A DNA stretch of 64,000 bases from Pedobacter sp. HDW13 (GTDB lineage Bacteria; Bacteroidota; Bacteroidia; Sphingobacteriales; Sphingobacteriaceae): positions 186,001 to 250,000 of the forward strand of contig NZ_CP049868.1 of assembly GCF_011303555.1 (NCBI RefSeq), read 5' to 3'. The translations under genes and the position numbers were made by a program. A model generated the notes under the pieces. It worked only from the letters and a program-made list of their open reading frames with translations. It did not search any database and was not told the origin of the DNA. This document shows positions 5,783 through 60,157 of the stretch, in pieces; within the stretch, counting starts at the first letter, position 1, and every line of letters begins with the position of its first letter.

Positions 5783-5862
5783 CCATCAATATAAACAGTT
5801 AAAACATTAAACGAAAGAAATTCCATCCATCGGCTTTAACTGGTTGTGGAATTTATAAAAAA

Positions 5863-29302: not shown

Positions 29303-29334
29303 AATTAAGGTTTATTATTTGGTTAGGTTATTGA

Positions 29335-30852
29335 TTACAGGCTTTTAATGCCTGCATATTTAAGATTTTGAATTAACAGTGGCTTAGTTGATTTTATATG
29401 GAGCTGCGTTAAAGGGCTATGCGCAAAGAATGTATTGGTCATCACTGTCAAACCATTATCTGCAAATACTTCCGCCGAGGTAACATCCAATATTAATTTT
29501 AATTGAATGTGGTTATCTTTTGAAATACGGGGAGCAGTTGTTACCCTTGGAAAGCTCTTTTCGAAATCAACCTGTCCTGATTTAGTACGGTCTGTATAAA
29601 AAGTATTGTTCTTCGCATCATATCCAAGAACAAGTTCATCTCCATTGTCGTTTGTTAAACGCAAAGAAAAGCTTTGCTTTTGCGCTGTCGTCAGCTCAAG
29701 CTGATACTTACCCTTAAATGAGGTTACCTTGGTAGAAAGGTCATAGTCTGTCTTGGCAGCACTGTATTTGAGCTGGGCAGCTTTATCCAAAATCAGGTTA
29801 AACTCTTTTACCGGGGCTGCACTGAGGTAAACCTCGTTTCCTACTTTTTTCAATTGAAGTTCTCTTGCAATTGTGGTAGCACCCCTAAACCCCTGCTCTG
29901 GTATCTGATTGGCGTAGGTCCAGTTATTCATCCAACCCATAAATATTTTCCTGTTGCCTGTGTTTGACCAGGTAACGCCAGCATAATTATCTGCCCCATA
30001 ATCCAGCCAACGAATGTCTGTATGATCTGCAGAAAATATCCCCTCTTTAAAGTCCCCTACAAAATACTGGGTTCCAGATCCGCCGGCGGGTCCTCCAGGG
30101 TTAATGCTAACCAGCAAGACCCACTTTTGAATCCCGTTCACAGATAAAGGAAACAGGTCAGGGCATTCCCAAACTCCTCCATGGGCACCTGACTTTTCCC
30201 CAAATTCACTTTCTTTCGTCCAATTTTTTAAGTTTGGCGATGAATAGAAGGTAATCCTATCCTTGGTTGCCAGGGTCATAATCCATTTCTTGCTTTGGGT
30301 ATGCCACATTACTTTTGGGTCCCTAAAATCCCAGATACCTGGGTTGGGCAGCACAGGATTACCTTCATATTTTGTCCATGTTTTCCCCTCGTCGATGCTA
30401 TAGGCAATACTTTGATATTGATGTAACCCCGTTTTAGCTTCTTCTATTTTGTGGTTGTGGTGTGTAAATATGGCAACCAGGGCATTCTTACCAAAACCAG
30501 CTGTGTTATTTACATCTACGACTGCGCTTCCGGAAAATATGGTTCCTAAACTGTCGGGATATAAAGCGATAGGCTGATGATCCCAATGATCCAAATCGGT
30601 ACTTGTTGCGTGCCCCCAATGCATTGGTCCCCAAACAGACGAGTTTGGATTATGCTGATAAAAGAGATGATACTTTCCATTTAAGTACACCATTCCGTTG
30701 GGATCATTCATCCAATGGCTCTTTGGTGTAAAATGAAATGCAGGGCGGTATTGATCGCTTTCGTTTTTCTGTTGGGCTATAGCTGTATTTTGGCCCAAGC
30801 CGCACGCAACCAGCATACAGAAATAAGTTATTTTTAAAATTTTATGTTTCAT
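29335..30852 (-). CDS. Glycoside hydrolase family 32, exo-fructosidase type
   Basis: A 505-aa enzyme with all GH32 hallmarks: nucleophile in WMNDPNG (Asp50), GPMHWGHATSTDLDHW, stabilising aspartate in FRDPKV and general acid in WECPDLF. The five-bladed propeller is followed by the C-terminal beta-sandwich. It should release fructose from levan, inulin or sucrose-type ends in the periplasm. The N-terminal signal has LVAC at residues 14-17, a possible lipobox, and also a signal-peptidase I site near AIAQ; either is possible. It sits between two other GH32 genes in the operon. Confidence 0.93.
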   Translation of the reverse strand: MKHKILKITYFCMLVACGLGQNTAIAQQKNESDQYRPAFHFTPKSHWMNDPNGMVYLNGKYHLFYQHNPNSSVWGPMHWGHATSTDLDHWDHQPIALYPDSLGTIFSGSAVVDVNNTAGFGKNALVAIFTHHNHKIEEAKTGLHQYQSIAYSIDEGKTWTKYEGNPVLPNPGIWDFRDPKVMWHTQSKKWIMTLATKDRITFYSSPNLKNWTKESEFGEKSGAHGGVWECPDLFPLSVNGIQKWVLLVSINPGGPAGGSGTQYFVGDFKEGIFSADHTDIRWLDYGADNYAGVTWSNTGNRKIFMGWMNNWTYANQIPEQGFRGATTIARELQLKKVGNEVYLSAAPVKEFNLILDKAAQLKYSAAKTDYDLSTKVTSFKGKYQLELTTAQKQSFSLRLTNDNGDELVLGYDAKNNTFYTDRTKSGQVDFEKSFPRVTTAPRISKDNHIQLKLILDVTSAEVFADNGLTVMTNTFFAHSPLTQLHIKSTKPLLIQNLKYAGIKSL

Positions 30853-30891
30853 TGGTTTATCTTTTTACGGTTATTTTTTAATTATTTGTAT

Positions 30892-32847
30892 TTACTTCCA
30901 TATACTCTCTAATTGCCAGGCTTTAAGATCCAAAAGTGTTGTTCCGTTTTCGGAAACGGCCTGAACCCCGAGTTGTTTATCAGAAGGAAACGTACTTGCG
31001 CTACATACCATTTCCCCATCATTGGCGAATATTTCTATAGAAGACCGGTCAATGAAAATATGAAGGTTGAGCCTGCCATCTTTTAGCGTTAATGGAACAG
31101 TGTATTTCTTAGCAAAAACCTGGGTAAAACTTTCATCAGTATTAAAATCAGTACAATTGGTCCTGTCAATGGTAAGATCGCCCAGTGCGGGATTATATCG
31201 GATGCTTAACTTCCTACCTTCCCCAACCAGCAAATTAAATCCAAAGACATTTGCAGAAACAGGCGTAAAGGCAACTTCCATTTCATAAGTATTTCGCTCA
31301 GGCTTAAACCCTTTTATTTCCTGAATATCTCTGATTTTTAGGTTTTGGGCTGAAAAACCATTTCTCCGCAAACTTTGCAATTGGCTAATGGGTTGCTGTA
31401 CTACCCGAAGTCCAGTCAGTGTTTTCCTTAGCGACATTACCCTGGGAATAGAATGAAACCCCTTGCCCCATGTGGTAGGGACTTTGCGGGCATAATCCCA
31501 ATTCCCCATCCACCCAATAGCAATTACAGTATCTTTTAAGCTATCATGTTCATCGTAATTTCGCCAGGTTCTGGTGGCATAATAATCTGGGCCATAGTCA
31601 AGCCACAAGGCATGCTCCAATTGCTGATTGGTTAGTTGATTGGAAAACATAATATGGTCAACAGCAATAAATCCTTTGGTACTGTCAGTGCTTTGGTCTA
31701 CAATTTCCAAATGTGCTTTTTTCCCAATAAGAGAACTCACATCCCAACCGTTCCATTTAAAAACCTTACAATTATCTCCGGTTGTACTTCGAACAATTTC
31801 ACCTTCAACAACCAGGTTTATACAAGTTGTATCGGGATGATTGCCACCTGCGATCAAAAAATTTATGGCTTTGTGATTAATGGTAAATGGCACTGATATT
31901 AAGTTTCCTTTAGCATTTTTCACCGAAGGAGATGAAGCATATCCTTTGCCAAGGTAATCAGCCATTTCTTTATTCTCCGCAAAAGCCAATCCTTCGTTCT
32001 TCCATTTTGGATAGGCTGGATTTTCAAAATCATCGAACACAACACCTGCTATTCCCTTCCCACTTTGAAGATAATCAATCATGGTCTGATCGGAATGAAA
32101 TGATTTTCCATCAAAATCACCAACAAAATACTGCACCCGGTTTGGACCTCTTCCGATAAGCAAAACCCATTTTTTCTCCTTTGTTCCTTCAATGGACAAT
32201 TCAAACAAATCAGGGCACTCCCAGAATGAATTTTTGGCACCCAAAGCTTTAAAGCTGCTACAATACTTCCAGTTTTTAAGATCAGGAGACTGGTAAAACT
32301 GAATTTCCTGAACGTCAGGACGGGAAACCACCATTTTCCATAGCTTGTCTTTTTTATGCCAAAAAACCTGCGGATCGCGAAAAAAAAATTTATTGATGCT
32401 GAGTACCGGATTTTCTTTATAATACTCAAAGCTCATTCCCTGATCACCGCTTACGGATATAGCCTGCGCTTCGGGCAAACTATCGCCAGCAAAGTGTTTG
32501 GTATAGATAGCAATCATGCTATTCTTTCCAAAACCACTGGTGTTCGCTTTATCAATGGCAACCGAGCCGCTAAAATAAGAGAACCCCATTCCTTCTTTCA
32601 TCGGCCTGGACAACTCCTGCCAATGCACTAAATCGGTAGAGGTTGCATGTCCCCACCAAAATAAATGGTACTTTCCATCGTGTTTAACCAAACCATCAGG
32701 ATCTCCAATCCACCCTTTTAACGGACTAAAATGATAAAGCGGGCGGTAAGCCTGCACTTCCCGATCTGCCTGTTGGGCAAAGCTGCTTACCGACAGAAAA
32801 ATTGTCGATAAGCAGGCCATTACTAATGGATTTTTCATTCTTCCCAT
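30892..32847 (-). CDS. Glycoside hydrolase family 32 with an inserted beta-sandwich module
   Basis: A 651-aa GH32 enzyme with a signal peptide (LSVSSFAQQ). The nucleophile motif is WIGDPDG (Asp49) and the next strand reads KYHLFWWGHATSTDLVHW, lacking the usual loop (QYNP to GPMH) of about 14 residues. FRDPQV and WECPDLF carry the other catalytic acids. Between propeller blades, at about residues 265-410, a module is inserted (DFENPAYPKWKNEGLAFAEN, then KWNGWDVSSLIGKKAHLEIV and AVDHIMFSN), of a type otherwise known next to levanase domains and probably sugar-binding. It should act on fructan oligomers in the periplasm. Confidence 0.88.
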   Translation of the reverse strand: MGRMKNPLVMACLSTIFLSVSSFAQQADREVQAYRPLYHFSPLKGWIGDPDGLVKHDGKYHLFWWGHATSTDLVHWQELSRPMKEGMGFSYFSGSVAIDKANTSGFGKNSMIAIYTKHFAGDSLPEAQAISVSGDQGMSFEYYKENPVLSINKFFFRDPQVFWHKKDKLWKMVVSRPDVQEIQFYQSPDLKNWKYCSSFKALGAKNSFWECPDLFELSIEGTKEKKWVLLIGRGPNRVQYFVGDFDGKSFHSDQTMIDYLQSGKGIAGVVFDDFENPAYPKWKNEGLAFAENKEMADYLGKGYASSPSVKNAKGNLISVPFTINHKAINFLIAGGNHPDTTCINLVVEGEIVRSTTGDNCKVFKWNGWDVSSLIGKKAHLEIVDQSTDSTKGFIAVDHIMFSNQLTNQQLEHALWLDYGPDYYATRTWRNYDEHDSLKDTVIAIGWMGNWDYARKVPTTWGKGFHSIPRVMSLRKTLTGLRVVQQPISQLQSLRRNGFSAQNLKIRDIQEIKGFKPERNTYEMEVAFTPVSANVFGFNLLVGEGRKLSIRYNPALGDLTIDRTNCTDFNTDESFTQVFAKKYTVPLTLKDGRLNLHIFIDRSSIEIFANDGEMVCSASTFPSDKQLGVQAVSENGTTLLDLKAWQLESIWK

Positions 32848-32856
32848 AGTCTAAAA

Positions 32857-34422
32857 CTAATGCGATGAAACTTTCAAGTTATTTACCTTTATATCTAATT
32901 TATCTGCACTAATCATCCATTGATTAGCATTTGCGGAGTAAATCCTATTGGTTAAGGCTATTTGATCATTTAAGTACAACACCACAACAGAACCATCAAC
33001 TACGATACTAAAATTGTAATTCTTATCTGCCTCAAATGTAAAGGGCACACGGGTAATTTCCTGACCATTTTTGTAAGCTGCTATGCGTTTTGAACCAGGT
33101 TCAAGTTTAATTATATATGAGGCGGTATTATCACTCTTTGTATTGAAACCAAAACTTGCTGTACCGGTTAAGTTATTAATAGAAAGGTTACCTGTTAGCA
33201 TGGTGGTACCATTTATTGCATTAAACCTGTACGCTGCAAGGGCTGTTGAACCATTTAATACATAATTGGCCGAAACATTGCTAACTGTTCCGGATTGCCC
33301 TGCAATCAACGGGGTAGCCTCTTTGGTAAAATAACTTTTAACCGCAACCGGAGCTTTTACAGCCAGCTTATCACTGCCTACCTTAATTAATTGTTGGGTA
33401 ATTAAATTCCCGCCCCAGGTCCTTGTCCCATTGTCATTTTCAGGATTACGGCGATGTGCCCAGCCAAAAACATAACGTTCAGTACCATTACTTGCTGAAC
33501 GACCTGCATAAAACTGATGACCATCAAACATATCCATTCCATCGGCAGGTTTTAACCATGGCCCGGCAGAAGATGCGGCAACCCTGTAGTGTGTACCCGG
33601 CGTACTGGTCCAATCTTCGGCAAAAAGCATAAAATACTTATCATCAATTTTAAATACATCCGCACATTCTAACATCAAATAATCGCCTTCTACAGTTAGC
33701 GGGCCTTTTAAATCCCATTTATCGCTTGCCGGATCCGCTGTGGTGTAAACCAGAATCGCCCCTTTTCCACCTTTTTGAGCGCTCACCATCATCCAATATT
33801 GCCCGAACTCCTGATTGTAAAAAACAAAAGGATCTCTAAAATCGTTGCTTGAATAACCTGCAGGTGCCCTAAGGGCAAAACCGGCTTTTTTAGACCAGCC
33901 CGATAGCGTACTACTTTTCGCGTACATAATGGCCTCAAGGGGATTGGCGGTTGTAAATGCAGGATTAGCATTTTGAAGCCAGCTGCCACTACCGTTATGC
34001 CCTGTATAATAAAAGTAGTTTGTGTTGGCGGCTTTTACCATAGATCCGGTCCCTACTAAAAAATCTTGCGTTGTTTGGCTACCATAAGGAATCATTTCGC
34101 CATCGTAACTAAAATCGAGCAGGTTTTTAGAGGTAAATTTATGAATTGGGTGTTGCCCCGGACTACTTTGTTTTATCCGATCGGACGCATCATGCAGGAA
34201 AAAAATCTCAAATTGACCATTAGCGTAATACGGCATTACATCGCCAACCCAGCCAGTATATTGTCCTGAGCTTGCCGTTGCAGAAAGTTGCGGCTTTGGA
34301 AAAATATTGAATTTTTCCTCGGCAAAAGGTTCAGCAGGAGCATAAGTCTTTTCTTTGGTGCAGGCAAGCGTCACTGATAAAAGCGTAGCTGCCATTAGAA
34401 TTCTTTTTAAGACCATCATCAT
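32857..34422 (-). CDS. GH32-like surface lipoprotein with C-terminal DUF4975 domain, second copy
   Basis: A 521-aa lipoprotein (SVTLAC, Cys21). As in the 543-aa paralogue, the GH32 propeller carries its nucleophile in an unusual context (GWVGDVMPYY), with the RDP motif in NDFRDPFVF and the acid glutamate in MLECADVF. The C-terminal domain is a DUF4975-type beta-sandwich (FGFNTKSDNTASYIIKLEPG). The start gives three methionines in a row; any may be used. It is the first enzyme after the surface-binding protein in the operon, the position of the endo-levanase in the B. thetaiotaomicron levan locus, which suggests surface endo-cleavage of levan. Confidence 0.82.
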   Translation of the reverse strand: MMMVLKRILMAATLLSVTLACTKEKTYAPAEPFAEEKFNIFPKPQLSATASSGQYTGWVGDVMPYYANGQFEIFFLHDASDRIKQSSPGQHPIHKFTSKNLLDFSYDGEMIPYGSQTTQDFLVGTGSMVKAANTNYFYYTGHNGSGSWLQNANPAFTTANPLEAIMYAKSSTLSGWSKKAGFALRAPAGYSSNDFRDPFVFYNQEFGQYWMMVSAQKGGKGAILVYTTADPASDKWDLKGPLTVEGDYLMLECADVFKIDDKYFMLFAEDWTSTPGTHYRVAASSAGPWLKPADGMDMFDGHQFYAGRSASNGTERYVFGWAHRRNPENDNGTRTWGGNLITQQLIKVGSDKLAVKAPVAVKSYFTKEATPLIAGQSGTVSNVSANYVLNGSTALAAYRFNAINGTTMLTGNLSINNLTGTASFGFNTKSDNTASYIIKLEPGSKRIAAYKNGQEITRVPFTFEADKNYNFSIVVDGSVVVLYLNDQIALTNRIYSANANQWMISADKLDIKVNNLKVSSH

Positions 34423-34448
34423 TGTGCTTATATTTTGAATTTATATTT

Positions 34449-35828
34449 CTATTTTTTTAGATAATCTATCGCATTCTTAGTCAACCTGCGAATGTTATTA
34501 ATGTAGTTATTGGTAGTTGGAGCACCATTTTGCGGCTCAGAATACCAATCGTAAGCACCGAATGTTATGACTACTACATTACCAGCACCGTTTGTTTGCG
34601 GCCATTCTGCTATACCTACTCTTCCATCAAGCTGATCGTCCCAAGCTTCAGAAGCAAGGTTTATTCCGCCGGTTTGCTGGCGCCATCCAGTTCCATTACT
34701 ATAGCCACCCCAATCGGGTAAAAACCACCAGGCGGTGTGGTTAAGCCTGAACGTACCTTTTTGTAATAAATTTGCCTTACCTGGTGCATAAGTATCCAAG
34801 CCTTGAAATATTGGATGGGATTCTTTGCCTTTGAAAGAAATTCCCCAATCGCTGTTATTTTCAATAAATCCATTTGGTAAAAAGTCCCCAAAAACATTAT
34901 TTGGACCTTTACCAGCTGGCACAACACCTAAAGCCTCTACGTATCGGCCTGCAAATGAAGAAAGCAGAAGAGAGCCGCCGGCTGTCCTATATGCTTTTAA
35001 AGCATTAACCGCTCCTGCTGCCGTAGCCTGAGCCGGAAGCGCCTGGTCTGAATCAAAATGCCACCAAATTACCTTATAATTTGAAAGTCGCTGCCCCGTA
35101 GCTACAGAACCGAAAGAGATATAATCGGCCGTTGGATAAGTAGTAAAAAACCAATCACTAGCTGCTTTTTCATCTGGATTTGTGATTGCTGATCTTGAGC
35201 CAGCAGTGCCGATAAATGCATATTGACTTATCGAATTACTAATCAGATTGACCTGGTAGGTAGTACTCACCGTTCCTTTGGTAAAGGTATAGGTAACCGG
35301 CTGAGTGAAATCCTGGGCAACACCACTTGCCGGGCTAACCTGAATACCTGCCGGGCTTTCGATAATTGGAGCCACTCCGTTTAAATTAGTTCCATCGGGT
35401 AACACCAAAGTAACATTTCTTCCCTCATTATCAATAGTTGCTTTAACACCGTTTACTGAAAGACTGGTTAAGGGAGAAATAATTTTTACGGTTACCGAAT
35501 AGTCTTTAAACAAATTTCCATTCACAACCCTAAAAGCTACTGCCCCGGTAAAATTTAGCGGCTTGGCATTTATGATATTTGCCGTTGCACCCTCAGGCAA
35601 TTCCATTGCAGGTGAAAGATTGGTTAAATCCGTTCCAAATGGAAGATTTACCGTTACAGCGCCCGTTAACTGGTTAATTGAGGCAACTGTACCGTTAATG
35701 GAGAAAGATGATAACTGAACCTGGGTATCCAGTTTAAAATCGTCATTTTTGCTCTTTTTACATCCTGCGAGCACCAATATTATGGCAACTAGCAGAAAAA
35801 CGGGCGCAAATATATTTTTAAGTTTCAT
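34449..35828 (-). CDS. SusE-position surface glycan-binding lipoprotein (DUF4960)
   Basis: A 459-aa lipoprotein (VLAGC, Cys23). After the signal come two Ig-like repeats (about 35-120 and 120-205: FSINGTVASINQLTGAVTVN, then LSVNGVKATIDNEGRNVTLV), and then a GATase-like alpha/beta domain of the DUF4960 type (SNYKVIWWHFDSDQALP, AYRTAGGSLLLSSFAGRYVE). In the levan locus of B. thetaiotaomicron a DUF4960 protein occupies the same place after SusD and binds levan at the cell surface. It lies 21 bases after the SusD stop. Binding of levan here is inferred by that analogy. Confidence 0.85.
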   Translation of the reverse strand: MKLKNIFAPVFLLVAIILVLAGCKKSKNDDFKLDTQVQLSSFSINGTVASINQLTGAVTVNLPFGTDLTNLSPAMELPEGATANIINAKPLNFTGAVAFRVVNGNLFKDYSVTVKIISPLTSLSVNGVKATIDNEGRNVTLVLPDGTNLNGVAPIIESPAGIQVSPASGVAQDFTQPVTYTFTKGTVSTTYQVNLISNSISQYAFIGTAGSRSAITNPDEKAASDWFFTTYPTADYISFGSVATGQRLSNYKVIWWHFDSDQALPAQATAAGAVNALKAYRTAGGSLLLSSFAGRYVEALGVVPAGKGPNNVFGDFLPNGFIENNSDWGISFKGKESHPIFQGLDTYAPGKANLLQKGTFRLNHTAWWFLPDWGGYSNGTGWRQQTGGINLASEAWDDQLDGRVGIAEWPQTNGAGNVVVITFGAYDWYSEPQNGAPTTNNYINNIRRLTKNAIDYLKK

Positions 35829-35849
35829 GTTCTTAATTTTAGTTTTCCA

Positions 35850-37547
35850 TTAATAAAGTGGATTTTGTACATACCGGTTTTCGCTCCAGAAAATCTGGTT
35901 TTGTGGAATTGGTAAAAATTCATCTCTTCCTTTGGTAAATTTGGCCCCCTGAAAAATACTGCGGGTTCCTTTCTCAGTATCAAAGTAAGCATTGATTACC
36001 TGATCGGTTATTCCCCAACGCATCAGGTCAAAGAACCGTTCACCCTCTAAAGCCATTTCTAAACGGCGTTCAAAACGAAGTGCTTTTCGGGCATTATCCT
36101 GGTCCCAAACAATATTGGTTCCGGGCACATATTGCTGCACATTATACTTTGAGGTTGGTTGTCCGTTAGCCATAACCAGTTTTGACGTACTTTTAGATGC
36201 ACGATCCCTGATGGCATTTATAAGAGGCAAAGCCTCTCCCTGCCTGCCAAGTTCTATAAGCGCCTCTGCCTTAAACAACATTACATCGGCAAGCCTGATC
36301 ATGATCCTGGCTTTGGTATTTCCAAAAAATGGCGGAAGCTTAATAAAGCAATCGCAATCTGGCGAAACGTTCTCTTTCATAGAATTATAAGTTCCATAAA
36401 TAGGGATACTGCGGCTCCAACTTTCGGTTACCACTCTTGTGGGATCGTATTTCCACGGTGCACCTGGTCGTGAAATCGTATGATCAACACGTGGGTCAAC
36501 TGTGTTTACTGAAAAATCTACGTTTTGTTGATTGAAAGTATCAAAAAGTGGAATACCTGCTGCAGTTGTTCTAAAAGCATTCATTAAAGTTTGCGAGGGT
36601 TTTTGAAAATCGCAGCAACCAATGCCTTGTGGTACGGTAAGCATATCACCAAAATTTACCCTCCCTCTACCTGCCCCGTCATTGCTGGAAAACTGAACCG
36701 ACATAATGGCTTCTACACCATTCTCAAAAGTCCCTGAAGTAAAGTTATTGGCAAAATCTGCCTGAAGCTTATAGCTTGAGGCCATCACCTGATCAGCCGC
36801 AGCAATAACTTGTTGCAAGCGGTTAGCATCAATTGATGTTACCGCATGGTTTGCATTTTGCATGTAAGCCTGAAACAACCTTGTTTTAGCTAAAAAAGCA
36901 TAGGCAGCGTATTTATTGGCTCGACCTATTTGCGGTTGTGCCACTGGAAGTGCATCTGCCGCAGCCTGAAAATCAGCTGCTATTTTATCCAATATCTGAT
37001 CTCTGGTAAAAACGTTGTTTTTAATAAACTTATAATCATCCGATGGTACTGCATCGTCTATATAAGGGATATTTTTGAACAGGTTTTCCAGCATCAAATA
37101 CCAGTAACCACGCAAGAAACGTAATTCGGCAACCCTGGTTTTTACGAGCGGATATTCAGCCTCGCTAAATTTACTTAGCACACGGATGCCCTCGTTGGCA
37201 CGCCTGATACCGACATAAATATTAAACCATATTCCGTCATAATTCCATTGATCGGGACGTGATGATACAAAGGTTTCCATTGCATGGAATACATCACCAT
37301 CGTTAATACCGCCACCGCCTTTATAAGCATCATCAGCACGGATATTTCCGTATTGGTACATGCTAAAGGCGCGGTTAATTTCATCATTGCCTAATTGTGA
37401 GTAAGCTGCCGTTACAAAACCTTCGGCTTGTGATGGTGTTGCCACCTGATTTTCGTTAAGTGAACCTCTTGGCCCTACTTCGAGTGCTTTTTTGCAGGAT
37501 GTAATCAATATTACTGATACTGCAAGTAAGAATATATATTTTTTCAT
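35850..37547 (-). CDS. SusD-like outer-membrane glycan-binding lipoprotein
   Basis: A 565-aa RagB/SusD family lipoprotein (ILITSC, Cys18). The N-terminal TPR-like part has the family opening GPRGSLNENQVATPSQAEGF, then VTAAYSQLG; the C-terminal part has ALRFERRLEMALEGERFFDL, then MRWG and the end GRDEFLPIPQNQIF. It caps the SusC pore and hands over oligosaccharide. It starts 14 bases after the SusC stop. In this locus the ligand should be a fructan. Confidence 0.95.
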   Translation of the reverse strand: MKKYIFLLAVSVILITSCKKALEVGPRGSLNENQVATPSQAEGFVTAAYSQLGNDEINRAFSMYQYGNIRADDAYKGGGGINDGDVFHAMETFVSSRPDQWNYDGIWFNIYVGIRRANEGIRVLSKFSEAEYPLVKTRVAELRFLRGYWYLMLENLFKNIPYIDDAVPSDDYKFIKNNVFTRDQILDKIAADFQAAADALPVAQPQIGRANKYAAYAFLAKTRLFQAYMQNANHAVTSIDANRLQQVIAAADQVMASSYKLQADFANNFTSGTFENGVEAIMSVQFSSNDGAGRGRVNFGDMLTVPQGIGCCDFQKPSQTLMNAFRTTAAGIPLFDTFNQQNVDFSVNTVDPRVDHTISRPGAPWKYDPTRVVTESWSRSIPIYGTYNSMKENVSPDCDCFIKLPPFFGNTKARIMIRLADVMLFKAEALIELGRQGEALPLINAIRDRASKSTSKLVMANGQPTSKYNVQQYVPGTNIVWDQDNARKALRFERRLEMALEGERFFDLMRWGITDQVINAYFDTEKGTRSIFQGAKFTKGRDEFLPIPQNQIFWSENRYVQNPLY

Positions 37548-37561
37548 GACTAGTTCGCTAT

Positions 37562-40500
37562 TTAAAACTTTACATTAATTCCTGCGGTAATGACCAAAGG
37601 GTTTGGATAACCAAAGCCTGGGCTCTCAGGATCAAGTCCGGTAAAGGACTTTGATTTCATCAAAATGGCCAGATTATCGCCACCAACATAAAACCTTAAA
37701 CTCTGCATCTTTAATTTTGAGATTAGTTTTTTATCAAAGCTGTAGCCTATTTGCGCATTTCTAAGTTTTAGATAGGAGCCGTTTTCAATAAAATAAGTAG
37801 AAAGTCGTGCTTCAAAATTATCATCGGTTAAGGCAACTGCTGGAATATCGGTGTTAGGGTTCGACGGCGACCAGGCATTCAGCAATCTGGCACCTTTGTT
37901 AGATGAAGATTCTACAGCGCTCCAAAAATCGGTATAAGATTTGGCCTCATTTCTAACTTCGACAGAACCAATACCTTGCAACAAGAAAGAAAAATCGAAG
38001 TTTTTATAGTTTATCGCTGCGTTTAAACCATAAGTATATTTTGGTAATGGATTACCAATCCAGGTACGGTCATTATCATTAATTACCCCATCGTTGTTCA
38101 AATCTTTATATCTGATGCGCCCAAGCCCTTTGCCTGGTTGTGCTGCATATGAATCAACTTCTGCCTGTGTTCTAAAAAGTCCATCGGCAACGTAGCCAAA
38201 GAAAGACCCTAAGGTTCTACCTAAAATATTCTGCCCTTTCCCATCTCCACCATAAGCATTTACTACCTCTGCAGGTAAATGTGTAACTTTATTGCGCACC
38301 ATATCAAAGTTACCATTAAGTTCAAGGCTCAAATCATTAGTCAGTTTACTTTTATGTCCCAAACTAAGTTCAAAACCTTTATTTTCCATTGATGCACCAT
38401 TTATATAAGTGTTTCCGCCTTCACCCAAAACACCTATATAAGGAGGGAGTAAAAGTATTCCGCTTGTTTTTTTGATGTAGTAGCCAACGCTTCCGTAAAG
38501 CTTTTGTTTCCATAGTGAAAAGTCTAAGGCTGCATTTGTCATTTCAGTAGCCTCCCATTTCAGGTTTGGATTGGCGTTTTGTGAAAGATAAAATCCGGAT
38601 GGTAAAACACCGCTTTTATTTCCGTTAATATCGTACGAGGTAATATTGTAGTTAGTCAGGTAGATATTGTATATCGCGTTATTATTAATTTCCTGGTTTC
38701 CGGTTTTTCCCCAGCCTGCATGTAATTTCAGATCGTCGAATATGCTGGTATTATTTTTAACGAAAGATTCTTCACTGATGCGCCAAGCACCGGAAAATGC
38801 AGGAAAAGTTCCATATTTATTGTTGGCACCAAACCTTGATGACCCATCACGTCTTATCGTGGCAGAAAACAGGTAACGGTCCATAAAAGAATAGTTCGCC
38901 CTTGCGATATATGATAAAAGCACATTCTTCGCACCGCTTCCACTATTGTCTTTAATACCTGTGCCTGCATCAAGGTACATATAATCAGGATCTTCCAGCA
39001 CATAACCTTCTCTTGAAGCCATAAATGTATTGGAGTTTTCTACAAAATGTTCAGTACCTGCAAAAGCATTTAACCTGTGATTACCTTTTTCAAGGTTATA
39101 ATTTACAGTATTCGTCCAGGTGGTTTTTACATTGTGTGTTTGGCTTTCAATAACTTTGGTAACATCATTCACTAAATATCCACTCACATATTTCTTTTGC
39201 CAGTTCCTGCTGGTGTAATTCCCGTAATCAATACCAAAATTAGATTTAAACACCAAGCCTTTCGTAATTTTTACATCGGCAAAGAAATTTCCAAAGAGCC
39301 TCATATAATCGTACCCATTCTGTTTATTATCTTCAAGTACACGTACCGGATTTTGGCGGTCGTTCATACCCGCCACAGGGCCTCCCCAACCTATGCCATC
39401 TACGGTATGTACCGGAATGATAGGAAGTGCTTGTAAGGCCGAGTTGATAATATTAGCCGAAACCTCTTTTGTTTTTGTTAAACTCAGGTTTTGCCCAATG
39501 GTCAATGCACCATTGAATAACTTATAATCTGAATTGATCCTTGCTGAAATTCTATTGAACCCGGTTGTCCTCACAATCCCTTTATTATCAAAGTAGCCCA
39601 AAGAAAGCAGATAATGTCCATTGTCAGTGCCACTAGAAACCTGTGCATCATAATTTTGTATTACACCAAGCTGAGAAATTTCATCAAACCAATTGGTATT
39701 GGCTGTTCTAAGGGTTTGTGCCGGATTAAGAAACTCAGGTAACATCACTTTATTTAGTACCGGTTGGTTTGTAGTGGGATTAACTGACCAATCAAACTGA
39801 TACTGCAATCCACTTGTATTGGGATTAATGTTTTTATTGGTATAAGCCTGCCACAAAATTTTACCGTAGCCTTCTGCATCCAGCATTTCGAGTTTGTTTA
39901 CATAAGTTGATAAAGAAGTATAGGCATTCCCATTCAGTTGCGTGCTTCCACTTTTACCTTTTTTGGTCGTAATTACAATTACTCCATTTCCTGCTCTTGC
40001 CCCATATATACTGGCTGAAGAAGCATCTTTAAGTATCTGCATCGATTCGATATCTGCCTGGTTAAGTTCATGCATCCCAGCCTTTGTTGGTACCCCATCT
40101 ATGATGAAAAGCGGGTCATTGTTGTTTAGTGTACCAATTCCCCTAATACGGATGGTTGCCGGTGAACTTGGTGCGCCGTTACCGGTAATATAAACGCCGG
40201 CTACCTGGCCTTGTAAAGCTTTCATTGGATTGGCGACAGACTGTTTTTTCAGCTCATCTACATCAACAATGGCTACATCTCCCGTTAGGTCTTTTTTACG
40301 CTCGGTCTGATAACCTGTTACCACTACCTCATCGAGATTTTTGGTATCCGCCTCAAGCACAATATCAATTTTCGTGCGGCCGTTAACCGGAACTTCTTTG
40401 CTCAAAAAGCCCATGTAAGAAATGACCAATACAGGATTATTTCCTGAAATACTGAGCGTAAATCCCCCTTTGCTGTCGGTGCTAGTTCCGGTCTTTGTAC

Positions 40501-40642
40501 CTTTGAGCATTACGCCAACGCCAATTAATGTTTCTCCTTTGTTATCTGTTACTTTTCCAGTTATGGTTAGAGGGTTTTGGGCCATCGTCTTCCCATAAAC
40601 AAGACAAGCAATTAGAAGGATTAGAAAATATTTTATTTTCAT
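37562..40642 (-). CDS. SusC-like TonB-dependent outer-membrane transporter
   Basis: A 1026-aa SusC/RagA transporter. Signal peptide to about residue 21 (TMAQ), carboxypeptidase-regulatory-like domain at 25-100 (ITGKVTDNKGETLIGVGVML), TonB box region (LDEVVVTGYQTERKKDLTG), plug domain with PATIRIRGIGTLNNNDPLFI, then IDGVPT, and a long barrel with typical SusC segments such as GRIRYKDLNNDGVINDNDRT and a C-terminal aromatic (INVKF). It imports oligosaccharides together with the adjacent SusD. It lies downstream of fructokinase after a 171-bp gap that may hold its own promoter. Confidence 0.96.
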   Translation of the reverse strand: MKIKYFLILLIACLVYGKTMAQNPLTITGKVTDNKGETLIGVGVMLKGTKTGTSTDSKGGFTLSISGNNPVLVISYMGFLSKEVPVNGRTKIDIVLEADTKNLDEVVVTGYQTERKKDLTGDVAIVDVDELKKQSVANPMKALQGQVAGVYITGNGAPSSPATIRIRGIGTLNNNDPLFIIDGVPTKAGMHELNQADIESMQILKDASSASIYGARAGNGVIVITTKKGKSGSTQLNGNAYTSLSTYVNKLEMLDAEGYGKILWQAYTNKNINPNTSGLQYQFDWSVNPTTNQPVLNKVMLPEFLNPAQTLRTANTNWFDEISQLGVIQNYDAQVSSGTDNGHYLLSLGYFDNKGIVRTTGFNRISARINSDYKLFNGALTIGQNLSLTKTKEVSANIINSALQALPIIPVHTVDGIGWGGPVAGMNDRQNPVRVLEDNKQNGYDYMRLFGNFFADVKITKGLVFKSNFGIDYGNYTSRNWQKKYVSGYLVNDVTKVIESQTHNVKTTWTNTVNYNLEKGNHRLNAFAGTEHFVENSNTFMASREGYVLEDPDYMYLDAGTGIKDNSGSGAKNVLLSYIARANYSFMDRYLFSATIRRDGSSRFGANNKYGTFPAFSGAWRISEESFVKNNTSIFDDLKLHAGWGKTGNQEINNNAIYNIYLTNYNITSYDINGNKSGVLPSGFYLSQNANPNLKWEATEMTNAALDFSLWKQKLYGSVGYYIKKTSGILLLPPYIGVLGEGGNTYINGASMENKGFELSLGHKSKLTNDLSLELNGNFDMVRNKVTHLPAEVVNAYGGDGKGQNILGRTLGSFFGYVADGLFRTQAEVDSYAAQPGKGLGRIRYKDLNNDGVINDNDRTWIGNPLPKYTYGLNAAINYKNFDFSFLLQGIGSVEVRNEAKSYTDFWSAVESSSNKGARLLNAWSPSNPNTDIPAVALTDDNFEARLSTYFIENGSYLKLRNAQIGYSFDKKLISKLKMQSLRFYVGGDNLAILMKSKSFTGLDPESPGFGYPNPLVITAGINVKF

Positions 40643-53518: not shown

Positions 53519-54172
53519 TTAGTCAATACTTCTTGATCGTATTAATTGGCTGTACATTTTGGGCAAATACCGTTTAAACCATTCTGGCAACTCTGAATCG
53601 CTTAATGGAGAATAGCAATCTTCACCGTGAATGCTAAAGATCGGTAGCATTTTACCTGTTGTATCAATAATTTCAATGGTATGAAAAATGGGGTAATAAT
53701 CATCAAGCATCTGCATATTCCCATAGAAGTTATTTTCGATATCCAATGGGCTAACATGGAACCCGTTTTTCTTGACGCGCATATCTACCCTTTTTACCGA
53801 TGATGGGACATGATCAAGCCCACAGAAAACAAGATTTATTTCAAAACCAGCTTCTTTAAATCGTTTGGGAGTTTTCCAAGCACCATGACCAGTAAAATGG
53901 CCTTCATAAGCAAAGTGTTTATGGTTTTTAATGTGGTCGTCCACTAATTCCAAAAAGTGCTCTTCTAGTGCTTCGTTTGCTAATTTTCTGGCTTCCTTAC
54001 TGACTTTAAATTGTTGATAGAATTCAGTCTGCTTTTTTGCGAAAAAAATGTCTCCATCAAATATTTGTAATTGATCAAACTCGACTGGGAGCAATGCCTG
54101 CTTCAAGGTTGATTTACCAGCACCATTGCTTCCGGTGATAATAAATAGTTGTGGTTTATTTAAGGATGGCAT
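53519..54172 (-). CDS. Zeta-toxin family ATPase/kinase
   Basis: A 217-aa P-loop protein. Walker A is GSNGAGKST at about residues 13-21; the next helix and the acidic motif IFDGDIFF fit the zeta-toxin fold, as do the later segments HFAYEGHFTGHGAW and VDMRVKKNGFHV (arginine/lysine finger region). Zeta toxins phosphorylate UDP-N-acetyl sugars and block wall synthesis, but some relatives serve other roles. The preceding gene overlaps its start by 17 bases and is the presumed antitoxin. Confidence 0.82.
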   Translation of the reverse strand: MPSLNKPQLFIITGSNGAGKSTLKQALLPVEFDQLQIFDGDIFFAKKQTEFYQQFKVSKEARKLANEALEEHFLELVDDHIKNHKHFAYEGHFTGHGAWKTPKRFKEAGFEINLVFCGLDHVPSSVKRVDMRVKKNGFHVSPLDIENNFYGNMQMLDDYYPIFHTIEIIDTTGKMLPIFSIHGEDCYSPLSDSELPEWFKRYLPKMYSQLIRSRSID

Positions 54173-54523: not shown

Positions 54524-54654
54524 TAGATTTATTATTAACAACATAACGTTTTTTTTCTTAATAAATTTTTCCAGTATGATTTTTATCTTCTTAAGGCAAT
54601 TAAATTAATTGGCTTTGTTTATGCTTTTAATGACAAGCTATAGCAGGACGAGAC

Positions 54655-55118
54655 TACATTAGCTATCGGGGATGGAAGTTCAATTACTTCATGAAATATA
54701 GCATACTCAAAACGCTTGGTCGTAAGCAAAAAAGAACCGTCGGACAAATACTTGAGAAGTATAGAGATGGAACGGATGTGGTCATCCCCTACAGGGATAA
54801 CAAAGGCAACGGGAAACAAAGAGTGTGGTATAATGGCGGTTTCAAATGTAAACGCTTTACAGATATTTACGAGGATAATCAATACGATAAAACACCTAAC
54901 ACCATGTATCTTCCAGCCCCGCACTTGTGGAAAGGTTAAAAGAGAAAAAGTATGAACTGTGCGGTGTAATGGGAGGCCTCGTGATGCATCACGTACGTAA
55001 CATCAATCAGCTTAAAGCTGACACCAGATGGAATGCAGTGATGATCAAACGCCATCGTAAAACGCTCGCAGTCTGTCAATATTTCGATGCATTAATCCAC
55101 AAAAGCTATGATAAGTAA
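54655..55118 (+). pseudogene. C-terminal remnant of a group II intron maturase/endonuclease
   Basis: The first part (from GWKFNYFMKYSILKTLGRKQ to VWYNGGFKCK) matches the X/maturase end of LtrA-type intron proteins. After a frameshift at the C run 54917-54920, the second part reads ALVERLKEKKYELCGVMGGL, then HHVRNINQLKADTRWNAVMI and KRHRKTLAVCQ, the DNA-binding/HNH endonuclease domain. Two zinc ligands are lost (Y for C in YELC; YFD for the second CxxCH). The reverse transcriptase itself is missing. The intron's own domains V and VI follow directly. Confidence 0.8.
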
Positions 55119-55136
55119 GGTTATGTTGACAATGGA

Positions 55137-55211
55137 GAGCCGTATACATGGAGACATGTACGTACGGTTCGGGGCGGGTTAGCAGAGACTTACCACCGCA
55201 AGGTGGCAAAG
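55137..55211 (+). ncRNA. Group II intron domains V and VI (3' end of the intron)
   Basis: Positions 55137-55170 are a canonical 34-base domain V: lower stem GAGCCGTA with TACGGTTC, the AGC catalytic triad at 55138-55140, a two-base bulge and an upper stem capped by a GAGA (GNRA) tetraloop. At 55189-55211 is domain VI, CCACC-GCAA-GGTGG on a CTT/AAG base with unpaired adenines that could be the branch point. The 5' half of the intron RNA is absent, so it cannot splice in cis. Confidence 0.85.
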
Positions 55212-55229
55212 CGCTGTTGGCCTAGCCCA

Positions 55230-55346
55230 CTGAAAGAAATCGCAGATATATGCGGTATCAAAATACCTCTTTCCTACCATATTGCCCGCCATACCTTTGC
55301 TACCACAATCACCCTCCAGAACGGAGTACCTATCGAAACCGTAAGT
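55230..55346 (+). pseudogene. Tyrosine-integrase fragment
   Basis: The frame reads LKEIADICGIKIPLSYHIAR, then HTFATTITLQNGVPIETVS, the box II region of Bacteroidota tyrosine recombinases with the H-x-x-R-H catalytic group (HIARH). It breaks off before the nucleophile tyrosine. It starts just after the group II intron end and may be the 3' exon of an integrase gene that the intron had entered; no 5' exon is found upstream. Confidence 0.8.
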
Positions 55347-55527
55347 AGTCCCAGTACAAAGGCTCAATCTGCCATACGTCTAGTCGGTGTTTGATAACAT
55401 TTTTTATGTATTTTATTTTAGCATTCAAAATTAGTTAACTGTGCGGCGGCAGTTCTTAACCTAATTTAAGAAATGAACGGTGAAAAAAAATTATAATGCC
55501 CTGTTTAGTGGTAATAATGCTAATAAG

Positions 55528-56096: not shown

Positions 56097-57191
56097 ATGA
56101 AAAAGCTCTCAACAGTAGCTACTCTATTTCTTGTATTTTTTCTTTTTTCCTGCAAGCAGCAACCTAAAAAAGAAACTTTTCTCCATAACCAATCCATCAC
56201 TGAAGGTTTTCAAACTGCTGTGTCAGAAAAAAAAGGTTTGATTTTAATTTCAAATAAGTCAGGCTGTACCATATGCGAGTCATTTGAAGTTGACCTGATG
56301 AAAGATAAAGACTATGCCGAAAGTATTTATCAAAATTTTGTCCTGCAACGTGTAGATGAAAACGCTGTCGGAAACAAATGGCTCGCGAGGCTTTTAAACA
56401 GAGGTAGTTTTCCTATTTTTTTATTCTTTAATAAGAAAATGCAATTAACGGGAATTGAAATGGGAGCCATTAATAAAAAAGAAATGGGAACCTATATTGC
56501 TCGTGTCTTAAAGGGTAAAAAATGGGTTGATCATTTCTACCAGCCCGGTGATGAGACAGGCATGTCTGCGGATAGATTGTTAACCTATGTTGAAAATGGC
56601 TATAACGCAGAATACTACTGGACTTTATACCAATCTAAACAAAATCCAGCTAAAATAGACCTGATGGAGCCTGCCCTAAAAAAGAGTATAAAGGCTTATT
56701 CAACTTTTTATAATAATTATTTACTGGCGAAATATTATGCTTTAAAAAAGGATAGTATACAAAGTAATGAAGCTGCAAAACTGGCATTATCGGTAAATGA
56801 TGGAACATCACTTTACTTTAATAATGGCCTTCGGACAGAGCTCAAAATGATTATCGACAGCAAATTTGACGCTTTTAAAGAGCCTTATGTTGGGATTTCG
56901 CAGACTGAGCAGAACTTCGGAAATGTAAAATTTGGAGAAAAAAAGATTGCAACTTTTAAGGTTACTAATTTGGGTAAAGCAAAACTGACGTTCAATAATA
57001 TTCTAAGCGACTGTAATTGTACGGTAGCCGATTATCCAAAAGAGGGTATTGAGCCTAAAAAGAGTGGAAATATCACCTTGACATTCTCATCAAACAAGCC
57101 TGGTGAATTCAGCCATATGGCGGAAATTGGATCAAACGCAGTCAATGCACCTATACAGTTAACCATAAAGGGTGTAGTATTGGGCGATTAA
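56097..57191 (+). CDS. Thioredoxin-like lipoprotein with C-terminal DUF1573 domain
   Basis: A 364-aa lipoprotein (LFSC, Cys19). A thioredoxin-like domain at about residues 35-140 has the redox pair in SGCTICESFEVDL (Cys57, Cys60), then a helical linker, and a C-terminal immunoglobulin-like DUF1573 domain from about 268 (TEQNFGNVKFGEKKIATFKV, then ILSDCNCTV and GNITLTFSS). It is the first gene of an operon with two small secreted proteins and an outer-membrane barrel. The CxxC motif suggests disulfide exchange on a periplasmic or surface partner, possibly the cysteine-rich peptide encoded next. Confidence 0.85.
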   Translation: MKKLSTVATLFLVFFLFSCKQQPKKETFLHNQSITEGFQTAVSEKKGLILISNKSGCTICESFEVDLMKDKDYAESIYQNFVLQRVDENAVGNKWLARLLNRGSFPIFLFFNKKMQLTGIEMGAINKKEMGTYIARVLKGKKWVDHFYQPGDETGMSADRLLTYVENGYNAEYYWTLYQSKQNPAKIDLMEPALKKSIKAYSTFYNNYLLAKYYALKKDSIQSNEAAKLALSVNDGTSLYFNNGLRTELKMIIDSKFDAFKEPYVGISQTEQNFGNVKFGEKKIATFKVTNLGKAKLTFNNILSDCNCTVADYPKEGIEPKKSGNITLTFSSNKPGEFSHMAEIGSNAVNAPIQLTIKGVVLGD

Positions 57192-57231
57192 TAAACAGAA
57201 TTCTTTATTCTTAAAACTTAAATAAAACATC

Positions 57232-57516
57232 ATGAAAAAAATGTTCTCAATTACGACGGCCGTGCTATTGTTAGCAGGCGTAACCATTACAAAAAGTCAG
57301 GTAGTCACCCCTGTGAAATGTGCTGATGACGAGCTTGGTAAATATTTTGCATCTACTACCGATTGCTCTGTATACTACCTATGTGCCGGTAGCTCATCAC
57401 CCTATTACTGGTACATAGGTAGTTGTCCTCCTGGATTGCATTTTAATGACGAGACCAGTACCTGCGATATTCCTAGCAAGATTACCCACACTTGTGGATG
57501 TAATGAACAACCCTAG
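57232..57516 (+). CDS. Secreted peritrophin-A (CBM14) chitin-binding peptide
   Basis: A 94-aa protein with a signal peptide (about residues 1-22, TITKSQ). The mature part has the cysteine spacing of a peritrophin-A domain: C in VKCADD, DCSVYYLC, then SCPPGLHFNDETSTCDIPS and THTCGC. The aromatic YYWY stretch between cysteines 3 and 4 is where such domains contact chitin. The family is abundant in insects and other animals, and rare in bacteria. It lies 40 bases after the thioredoxin/DUF1573 gene. Chitin binding is inferred from the fold only. Confidence 0.82.
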   Translation: MKKMFSITTAVLLLAGVTITKSQVVTPVKCADDELGKYFASTTDCSVYYLCAGSSSPYYWYIGSCPPGLHFNDETSTCDIPSKITHTCGCNEQP

Positions 57517-57561
57517 TATCGATAATTAACAAGATAAGTAGACTCTTAATTTTTGTAAAAC

Positions 57562-58014
57562 ATGAGAAAAGCAATTTGGATTACGTTTTTTTTAGCTTTA
57601 GGTTTCGTGCGAGTTAAAGCACAATCTGAAGTAGCAAGAGATATTGAAAGGGCCCGAATGCGCTCCGGAGGGATCGGGTCTGCTAAAAGCAACAAAATTT
57701 ATAAAAAAGTAGTGCAACTCCTCGATGTGAGCACAAATGCACCTGTTGCAAACCACTATTTTAACGTTTACAAGAGTGGCACACTTGTTTTCCCAAGTCA
57801 AACCAATGATAAGGGTTACGGAATGATCATTATGCGAAACGATACTTATTATGGCAAAGTAGAATTAGACCTCAACCCTCCAGCTCAAGATCCAGGTGCT
57901 TTAACCAAGCGCAATACGGAAAGCTACAAATTGGTAGAAGCAGGTAATATCTCCTTTCTATCCAAAAAAGAATTGATAGATACCGTAAAAGTATATGTTA
58001 AAAAAATGAACTAA
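57562..58014 (+). CDS. Small secreted protein of unknown function
   Basis: A 150-aa protein with a signal peptide (to about VKAQ at residue 21). The mature part begins with a charged helix (ARDIERARMRSG), then beta-rich stretches (KKVVQLLDVSTNAPVANHYF, NVYKSGTLVF, GYGMIIMRNDTYYGKVELDL). It resembles no family I know. It is third in the operon, 45 bases after the CBM14 gene and 10 bases before the barrel gene. An accessory of the barrel is plausible. Confidence 0.7.
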   Translation: MRKAIWITFFLALGFVRVKAQSEVARDIERARMRSGGIGSAKSNKIYKKVVQLLDVSTNAPVANHYFNVYKSGTLVFPSQTNDKGYGMIIMRNDTYYGKVELDLNPPAQDPGALTKRNTESYKLVEAGNISFLSKKELIDTVKVYVKKMN

Positions 58015-58024
58015 TCTTTAGGCT

Positions 58025-60157
58025 TTGGATTACATACAAAAAGGAGTTCTTGTTCTTATTTCCATTGTATTTATTCATTTGAATAGTTATGCCCAGGAAA
58101 AAAAGCCTATAGAGCTTAAGGATGTAACTATCAAGGGGAGCAATAAACCCCTAAGAGAAACGGCAAAGGGGGTAATTTTGGACATTAGTAAAATTGCTGA
58201 TGCTAAATTACTCACCCTTGCCGAAATCTTAAAAACCATACCGGGTATAGAAGTTGACGACAAGGGGAAAGTCAGCTACATGGGAAAAGAATTAACAGTA
58301 TTACGCGATGGTGTAAACGTTGCGGGTTTTTCCAATCAGCTAACCAATAGCTTAAATAGCAGCAATACCGGTAACAGTTATAAAAAAATCGAGTTGAATC
58401 TTTATGACCTCAAAACCGAAGGGCCAACACTAAGTTTTGTAGCCACTAAGTATGAGCAGGGTTATTTTGGGAGTGTGATTGCAAATGCGGGCAGCAATTC
58501 GTCTATGGCAATGGGCAATATGTCCTTGAGTAAAAACAAGTACTTGCTTAACTTTAGCACCTCAGGTAATTTGCAATATGCCCCATCGTCAGAAAACTAT
58601 GTTAAAACCTTTTTCGATCAAACCCTCGCCCAGGAAAACCGGGATTTAAAAGTCAGCGGAATTAATATCCAAAACTATCAATTTAGCGTTGCCAATAGTT
58701 ATTTTATCAATCCCAAAAGCACTTTAAATGCATCTGTAAGCTACGGTTCTTCCCTAACCAAATACGGTATTGCCAACCGAATGCAGCAGTATCAGAACGG
58801 TGCATTAAATAATGAGAGTATTACCGCTCTCGATATGCGCAATCCGATGGGTAAAAACCCAAATCTTGGCGCTAAGCTAAGCTATATATACAAAATCAAG
58901 AAAAGCGAAGCGGTAAGCCAAAGATTTGATATCGCCTTGGAATACGATAATAACCATACTTTAAGTGAAACTTCTGTAAATACCCAATCTCTGTTAAACG
59001 TATTTTTACCAAACAGTAACTACAACAGCGATAATACCACGAAAATGAATAATATTTTCGGTTTACTAGGCTATGAATTTAACCATGAGGGGCTTGGGGA
59101 TTTTGAATTTGTAGCCCGTTATTTCAACCGCAAAAATTATCAGCGCTACGATTATACTTACCAAACCGATTTAGCGGGTAACCTTGTCAATCTTTTTCAA
59201 GATAACAATATTGCCTATAACTATGGGGCGCTACTTGCTAGCTGGAGCAAGAGTTTTAAGGGGCTATCCCTGCGAACTGTTCTAAAACAGGATTACAGCA
59301 GCGATCACATCTCTAACCTTAAAGGAAGGGATAAATTTACATTTTCTACTTTTTCCCCTTATTTATCATTACAACGGAGCTTAAAAAACGGCAGCATACG
59401 CCTTGAAGCACAATACAGTCAATCCAGGCCAAATTTAAACAACCTGACCAATATCATAAACTATGGGGCACAGTACGATACTGATAACCAGGTTATCATT
59501 GGCAACCCTTATTTAAAGCCTTCGAAATCGCTATATTTCTCAGGAATATACAATACCAATGTAAAAAGTATCAATCTTGTCTTTACGGGAAATTATAAGC
59601 ATACAACGGATGCGATTTCAACTTTTGATACAACAGATGTAAGCAACGTACGTATCCGGACTTATCGCAATCTAGCCAGCCGAAACGATTATAACGGCAA
59701 CCTATCTATAAATTTCTACCTTTTGCCGCGCTTTACTGTTCAGTTATTCACAAACCACATTTTTGGAGCATTCAAGGTTAGCGAAAAAGAATCAACAAAT
59801 GCTTACCGCTGGTCAAATGGGCTCACTCTGGGTTTTACACCCGTGCCGAATATTAGATTAGGCGCAAACTCGAGTATCAGCGGGGGTTCAAGTTTTCAAT
59901 CCAAAACAAAAGCACAAATTAACACCGGTTTATCCGCTACTTACATTAAAAGCAAACTAAATTTCAGCCTATCCATTAATAACTTTCACCAACCTTATTT
60001 TAATAACTATAACTGGATATACGGATATGGTTACCAAACTTCCAGCCAAAGCAGGAGCAGGAGAATAGCGGGTAATTTAAGCATCAATTATAGCTTTGGT
60101 AAGCCAGCTAAAACAACGGGCGCCAATGGGAAGGAAATCAAAAAAGATGATATGTAA
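58025..60157 (+). CDS. TonB-dependent-receptor-like outer-membrane beta-barrel protein
   Basis: A 710-aa protein of the outer membrane beta-barrel family (OMP_b-brl_3). A signal peptide to about residue 23 (LNSYAQ) is followed by a plug-like part, LKDVTIKGSNKPLRETAKGV, then LAEILKTIPGIEVDDKGKVS and YMGKELTVLRDGV, without the carboxypeptidase-like domain of SusC. The rest is a barrel with repeated aromatic strands; the end is polar (TTGANGKEIKKDDM). The start is a TTG 10 bases after the previous stop, as no ATG lies near. Substrate unknown; it may export or import a peptide or bind with its operon partners. Confidence 0.8.
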   Translation: MDYIQKGVLVLISIVFIHLNSYAQEKKPIELKDVTIKGSNKPLRETAKGVILDISKIADAKLLTLAEILKTIPGIEVDDKGKVSYMGKELTVLRDGVNVAGFSNQLTNSLNSSNTGNSYKKIELNLYDLKTEGPTLSFVATKYEQGYFGSVIANAGSNSSMAMGNMSLSKNKYLLNFSTSGNLQYAPSSENYVKTFFDQTLAQENRDLKVSGINIQNYQFSVANSYFINPKSTLNASVSYGSSLTKYGIANRMQQYQNGALNNESITALDMRNPMGKNPNLGAKLSYIYKIKKSEAVSQRFDIALEYDNNHTLSETSVNTQSLLNVFLPNSNYNSDNTTKMNNIFGLLGYEFNHEGLGDFEFVARYFNRKNYQRYDYTYQTDLAGNLVNLFQDNNIAYNYGALLASWSKSFKGLSLRTVLKQDYSSDHISNLKGRDKFTFSTFSPYLSLQRSLKNGSIRLEAQYSQSRPNLNNLTNIINYGAQYDTDNQVIIGNPYLKPSKSLYFSGIYNTNVKSINLVFTGNYKHTTDAISTFDTTDVSNVRIRTYRNLASRNDYNGNLSINFYLLPRFTVQLFTNHIFGAFKVSEKESTNAYRWSNGLTLGFTPVPNIRLGANSSISGGSSFQSKTKAQINTGLSATYIKSKLNFSLSINNFHQPYFNNYNWIYGYGYQTSSQSRSRRIAGNLSINYSFGKPAKTTGANGKEIKKDDM

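Follow-up and report, generated by a model that had tools for sequence, protein, structure and literature searches.

A CBM14 peptide operon with a redox lipoprotein in Pedobacter, and sister loci that carry CBM1

CBM14 and CBM1 are generally regarded as eukaryotic modules. A small cysteine-rich secreted peptide encoded with its own thiol-disulfide oxidoreductases is known from the sublancin operon, which includes BdbA and BdbB. The Pedobacter operon described here resembles the sublancin operon in that a redox partner is dedicated to a cysteine-rich secreted peptide, a comparison by function that claims no membership, but sublancin is a Gram-positive glycocin with ABC export and an antimicrobial cargo, whereas the cargo here is a predicted carbohydrate-binding module. 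Like the Sus-like loci of Bacteroidota, the operon places a predicted polysaccharide-binding component close to an outer-membrane barrel, yet it has no glycoside hydrolases, its barrel is of the OMP_b-brl_3 family, its binding component is a small disulfide-rich peptide and, with no SusD in or beside it, it falls outside the SusC/SusD definition. The peptide is like known CBM14 proteins (tachycitin, the chitotriosidase domain and fungal Avr4) in profile fold family, cysteine pattern and small secreted form, but it is bacterial, its gene neighbours include those of a redox lipoprotein and a barrel, and two ligand-contact aromatics are replaced. Likewise, the CBM1 sequences of sister loci share the conserved cysteines and the aromatic face of fungal CBM1 (e.g. 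that of cellobiohydrolase I), but are bacterial and either stand alone as secreted peptides or are joined to domains other than cellulases. In the literature searched we found no published description of bacterial CBM14 or CBM1 systems of this kind; we would rate the pairing of a redox partner with a cysteine-rich secreted peptide as a known kind, and the swappable cargo as the unexpected part.

The window, that is, the whole stretch of 64,000 nucleotides that was analysed (G000:C1:186001-250000), belongs to a 6.4 Mb genome in one contig. Four codirectional genes on its + strand, separated by gaps of 40, 45 and 10 bases, encode a 364-aa redox lipoprotein (gene 1, 56097-57191; DUF1573, 82.4 bits in Pfam), a 94-aa secreted CBM14 peptide (gene 2, 57232-57516), a 150-aa secreted protein with a signal peptide and no Pfam family (gene 3, 57562-58014) and a 710-aa outer-membrane beta-barrel protein with a TTG start (gene 4, 58025-60157; OMP_b-brl_3, 74 bits in Pfam), so that the open reading frames bear out the gene order, coordinates and tight spacing of 10-45 bases given in an earlier note on this DNA. 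No Bacteroidota-type promoter (TAnnTTTG) was found upstream of the operon on the + strand, and sigma-70-type and terminator-like sites are roughly as frequent at the operon as in shuffled sequence. The region just ahead of it (54600-55400) apparently holds few genes and includes a short frame resembling the C-terminus of a tyrosine recombinase (55203-55394, +; Phage_integrase, 13 bits, under the Pfam cut-off), possibly the scar of a mobile element. Elsewhere in the window lie a Zeta-toxin-like kinase (53519-54172, -; 29.1 bits against a cut-off of 22.3) and what appears by eye to be a fructan-utilisation locus with a SusC/SusD-like pair and several glycosidase-like lipoproteins (27671-40642, -).

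The gene 1 product has the lipobox LFSC (Cys19), a thioredoxin-like domain with a CTIC motif (Cys57/Cys60, alignment numbering) and an 'SFP' cis-proline motif, a helical linker and a C-terminal Ig-like DUF1573 domain with a CNC motif (Cys306/Cys308). Its Thioredoxin_2 score of 26.1 bits lies slightly under the Pfam cut-off of 27, and profile searches of the PDB matched the lipoprotein to a putative disulphide isomerase, DsbD and DsbC. In an alignment of 11 lipoproteins the CxxC motif is present in 10, the cis-proline in all 11 and the DUF1573 CxC in 10; the copy at locus L029, from which both cysteine motifs are absent, is the sole aligned copy without an adjacent CBM peptide. An IS3-type transposase adjoins the L029 lipoprotein. 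The lipoprotein of L064, aligned separately, has both motifs, and all intact full-length lipoproteins with a CBM peptide partner retain CxxC and CxC. A redox role of the DUF1573 CxC is supported by the existence of DUF1573 selenoproteins with a UGC motif (PMC9312934). Lipoproteins destined for surface exposure carry an export signal, C-X-K-(D/E)2 or a similar acidic motif, after the lipidated cysteine (PMC5080379); this signal is absent from window gene 1, which reads CKQQPKK at the lipidation site, and the protein is therefore predicted to face the periplasm. We infer that gene 1 encodes an outer-membrane lipoprotein whose domains lie in the periplasm.

Gene 2 encodes a peptide with a Sec-type signal peptide, no lipobox and cysteines at positions 30, 45, 51, 65, 78, 88 and 90. 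Its proposed assignment to CBM14 holds, with a Pfam score of 43.5 bits against a cut-off of 22.1 and a match spanning positions 1-50 of the 53 in the CBM_14 profile (PF01607), and a profile of the bacterial peptides retrieved solved CBM14 proteins from the PDB, namely the squid beak protein, chitotriosidase, tachycitin and fungal Avr4. The presence of Avr4 among the solved chains (6bn0; PMC6128652) means that the fold is not exclusively animal-type, as the earlier note had it. The AlphaFold model of the peptide, built from only three sequences, was too poor for fold searches (pLDDT 49.9), so that the fold assignment depends on the profile matches. Residues P66, L69 and D79 are the counterparts of CHIT1 Pro451, CHIT1 Leu454 and Avr4 Asp102, and Thr and Ile occupy the positions of the ligand-contact aromatics Avr4 Trp100 and Tyr103; because of these two replacements the affinity for chitin is uncertain, and chitin is a tentative candidate ligand. 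Queried with the peptide, neither a scan of genome contigs nor a plasmid search returned relatives.

CBM14 is rare in these bacteria: the window genome has a single copy, and the module is present in 8 of 301 genomes of the family and 2 of 335 drawn from the phylum (the window genome counted in both), as well as in 11 of 400 drawn from the order. Matches in genomes G170 and G020 were set aside as short or broken and lying inside long unrelated frames. A second Pedobacter, the metagenome-assembled sp. MAG A84_bin7_2 (L039), repeats the four-gene order in full (363, 90, 148 and 706 aa), and variants occur in three other genera, one of them from another family. At L042 and L044 an HTH regulator precedes the lipoprotein, the CBM14 peptide, a 238-aa secreted protein and a barrel of about 900 aa, which at L042 has a CarboxypepD_reg domain at its N-terminus; L025 and L026 (genus g16) combine the lipoprotein with CBM14; and L055, in the other family, has a 154-aa lipoprotein with a thioredoxin domain only, the 238-aa protein, CBM14 and a barrel. 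The arrangement thus exceeds chance, the same order recurring in L039 and variants in several genera, and the search for conserved neighbourhoods that the earlier note had called for came out in its favour. Its notion of one four-gene set survives in part: the lipoprotein and the peptide do form one unit, but a separate unit, often present beside the first and missing at the loci with CBM1, consists of the barrel and either gene 3 or a different secreted protein. The 238-aa protein, which by eye had looked CBM9-like, matched nothing in profile or PDB searches. Upstream of the CBM14 genes in L030, L033, L039 and L044, genes for a TlpA-type thioredoxin and a retropepsin-like aspartyl protease recur, and a Trx7 protein is also encoded upstream of the operon in three of these four. 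Four similar tandem genes, each for a secreted protein of 211-224 aa, follow the CBM14 gene at L026 (7647-10328, +). Downstream of the barrel of the CBM14 operon at L044 lies a gene for a 92-aa peptide (5571-5849, -), a double-glycine leader followed by CPEGLCWNANTQTCDF; this sequence resembles half of a CBM14 module, marginally so (16.1 bits, under the cut-off), and the peptide is perhaps a version of the CBM14-like peptide that takes a bacteriocin route.

In three loci, L028, L030 and L031, both the lipoprotein and the CBM14 gene have suffered damage or loss: in L028 a deletion fuses the lipoprotein start, out of frame, to a CBM14 sequence without signal peptide; in L030 the lipoprotein is left as two ends only and a break close to the 3' end disrupts the CBM14 frame; and in L031 both are gone save for the last CBM14 codons. 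The barrel frame stays open in each of these loci, and so does that of gene 3 where the gene is present, at two of them. The L031 remnant adjoins a relaxase and MobC pair.

We ran a lipoprotein profile over all 145 genomes of the genus. It placed full-length lipoproteins next to CBM14 in G000, G328, G355 and G356, and near secreted proteins with a module of a second, fungal-type family, CBM1, in G197, G416 (two copies) and G284; a further lipoprotein beside CBM1, in G339, was found through the CBM1 search. The CBM1 assignment (PF00734) rests on scores of 35-46 bits against a cut-off of 20.6 in the four proteins scanned. Searched for directly, CBM1 appeared as five genes in 4 of the 145 genus genomes, each within 3 kb of a Trx-DUF1573 lipoprotein, and in none of 60 genomes drawn from the class. 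All told, a carbohydrate-binding peptide lies beside 12 of the 13 full-length lipoprotein relatives found, the window included (CBM14 in seven, CBM1 in five), and all eight genus genomes that have the lipoprotein also have CBM14 or CBM1. The probability of such agreement by chance is about 4e-11, a rough guide that assumes 11 CBM-bearing genomes among 145, ignores relatedness and comes from a set in which CBM14 was not searched in every genome; stronger evidence is that lipoprotein and peptide are adjacent, no more than about 0.1 kb apart at nearly all loci. In a tree of the lipoproteins the five CBM1 partners form one clade (support 100/99), and the CBM14 partners do not resolve as a single group. 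All five CBM1 sequences have an aromatic residue at Cel7A positions 5 and 32, and four of them also at position 31; these are aromatics known for their part in cellulose binding. A cassette of a thioredoxin, a CBM-beta fusion and a lipoprotein of about 160 aa occurs with CBM14 at L033 and with CBM1 at L058, the parts outside the CBM being homologous; the fusion and this small lipoprotein also occur with CBM14 at L027, and are broken at L032. The earlier note had suggested that redox lipoprotein and cysteine-rich peptide are specifically linked; this is supported by their co-occurrence, by their shared decay and by the loss of the redox motifs only where the peptide is absent, and the note's carbohydrate-binding reading gains because the same kind of lipoprotein also sits beside CBM1.

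Gene 3 weakly matched a collagen adhesin (E 0.0012) and, locally in hhalign (80% over 40 columns), the N-terminal domains of related barrels; its AlphaFold model was too poor for fold searches (pLDDT 41). Gene 4 has, besides OMP_b-brl_3, a weak TonB plug match, and its alignment to the L028 barrel starts at residue 31 against residue 119 there, so the window barrel is without the N-terminal beta domain of its relatives. Gene 3 probably encodes a carboxypeptidase-regulatory-like beta-sandwich, a detached version of the domain that is fused to the barrel elsewhere. Since the barrel is without this domain and gene 3 lies just upstream, gene 3 and the barrel likely arose by a split of one ancestral protein, a proposal in which we have moderate confidence. 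Both are 75-78% identical to their counterparts in G029, of another genus, and 40-58% to copies from the same genus; we weighed a horizontal transfer of the operon from one genus to another but do not claim it, since the genes flanking these in G029 are also 61-85% identical to window genes.

The reading that we favour, and hold to be reasonably probable, is that a dedicated redox lipoprotein folds interchangeable disulfide-rich polysaccharide-binding peptides, which the barrel unit might hold or carry. The core would be a two-gene unit of a periplasm-facing redox lipoprotein (thioredoxin CxxC plus DUF1573 CxC) and a Sec-exported carbohydrate-binding peptide, whose disulfides the lipoprotein would form or reshuffle. 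The mature peptide, judging from its family, would bind an insoluble polysaccharide outside the cell, for instance chitin, and the barrel with the detached beta-sandwich might carry or hold it at the outer membrane, by passage of the peptide through the barrel or docking on it; this is the weakest step. In sister lineages CBM1, of the cellulose type, takes the place of CBM14, and the unit would therefore work as a holder for swappable wall-binding tips, which could attach the cell, or released products, to fungal, arthropod, oomycete or plant material. Against this reading, there is no chitinase or SusD beside the window operon (GH18 genes lie elsewhere in the genome), the CBM1 loci are without the barrel, and the CBM14 protein of L027 has no thioredoxin gene next to it.

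Fulvocin C-related (NF033852) and transglutaminase-like proteins are encoded near the CBM1 peptides at L056 (4940-6313, -) and L064 (9207-10491, +), the former with matches of 65 and 89 bits (one protein scanned per locus). The fulvocin C-related genes, named after a bacteriocin, lend some weight to an alternative that we consider unlikely, in which the peptides are secreted antimicrobials of tachycitin or bacteriocin kind, the lipoprotein matures their disulfides and the barrel is an exporter, receptor or immunity factor. Tachycitin is both a CBM14 protein and an antimicrobial (PMC6128652), the L044 peptide joins a double-glycine leader to a CBM14-like half, and the patchy presence of the genes, with joint loss of peptide and lipoprotein while the barrel is kept, resembles the loss of a toxin with its immunity retained. 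'Fulvocin C-related' is, however, a name given by similarity, and an antimicrobial role fits poorly with one slot filled by two unrelated polysaccharide-binding families, the CBM1 copies keeping their cellulose-binding aromatics, or with the CBM-beta fusions of L033, L027 and L058; nor did any of the four operon proteins match a PADLOC anti-phage defence model. Still less probable is polysaccharide uptake, in which the CBM peptide would concentrate chitin fragments for a TonB-like barrel in a Sus-like manner without SusD. The plug match of the barrel family and four GH18 matches in the window genome are compatible with uptake, but SusD, glycoside hydrolases and inner-membrane transporters are absent from the operon and its direct neighbours in the loci read, the CBM1 loci have no barrel, and a dedicated redox lipoprotein would be left unexplained. 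That the four genes are neighbours without joint function, CBM14 being a chance acquisition, might be argued from its rarity and the recombinase-like fragment upstream, but is highly improbable and largely refuted by the conserved neighbourhoods in a second Pedobacter and three other genera, by the exchange of CBM14 and CBM1 beside the same lipoprotein and by the coupled loss.

Returning to interchangeable binding peptides folded by a dedicated lipoprotein, we tentatively propose, at somewhat short of even confidence, that Bacteroidota possess a modular system of swappable, disulfide-rich and otherwise eukaryote-type CBM14 or CBM1 peptides, built by a redox lipoprotein with two motifs, which are displayed at the outer membrane or released from it and target fungal, arthropod, oomycete or plant walls. 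The occupation of one bacterial slot by CBM14 and CBM1, served by one redox lipoprotein, would offer a test of how disulfide-rich binding peptides are made, and of how bacteria recognise chitin or cellulose surfaces. It suggests a function for the otherwise uncharacterised family of Trx-DUF1573 lipoproteins, and the peptides themselves may suggest small, secretable chitin- and cellulose-binding tags.
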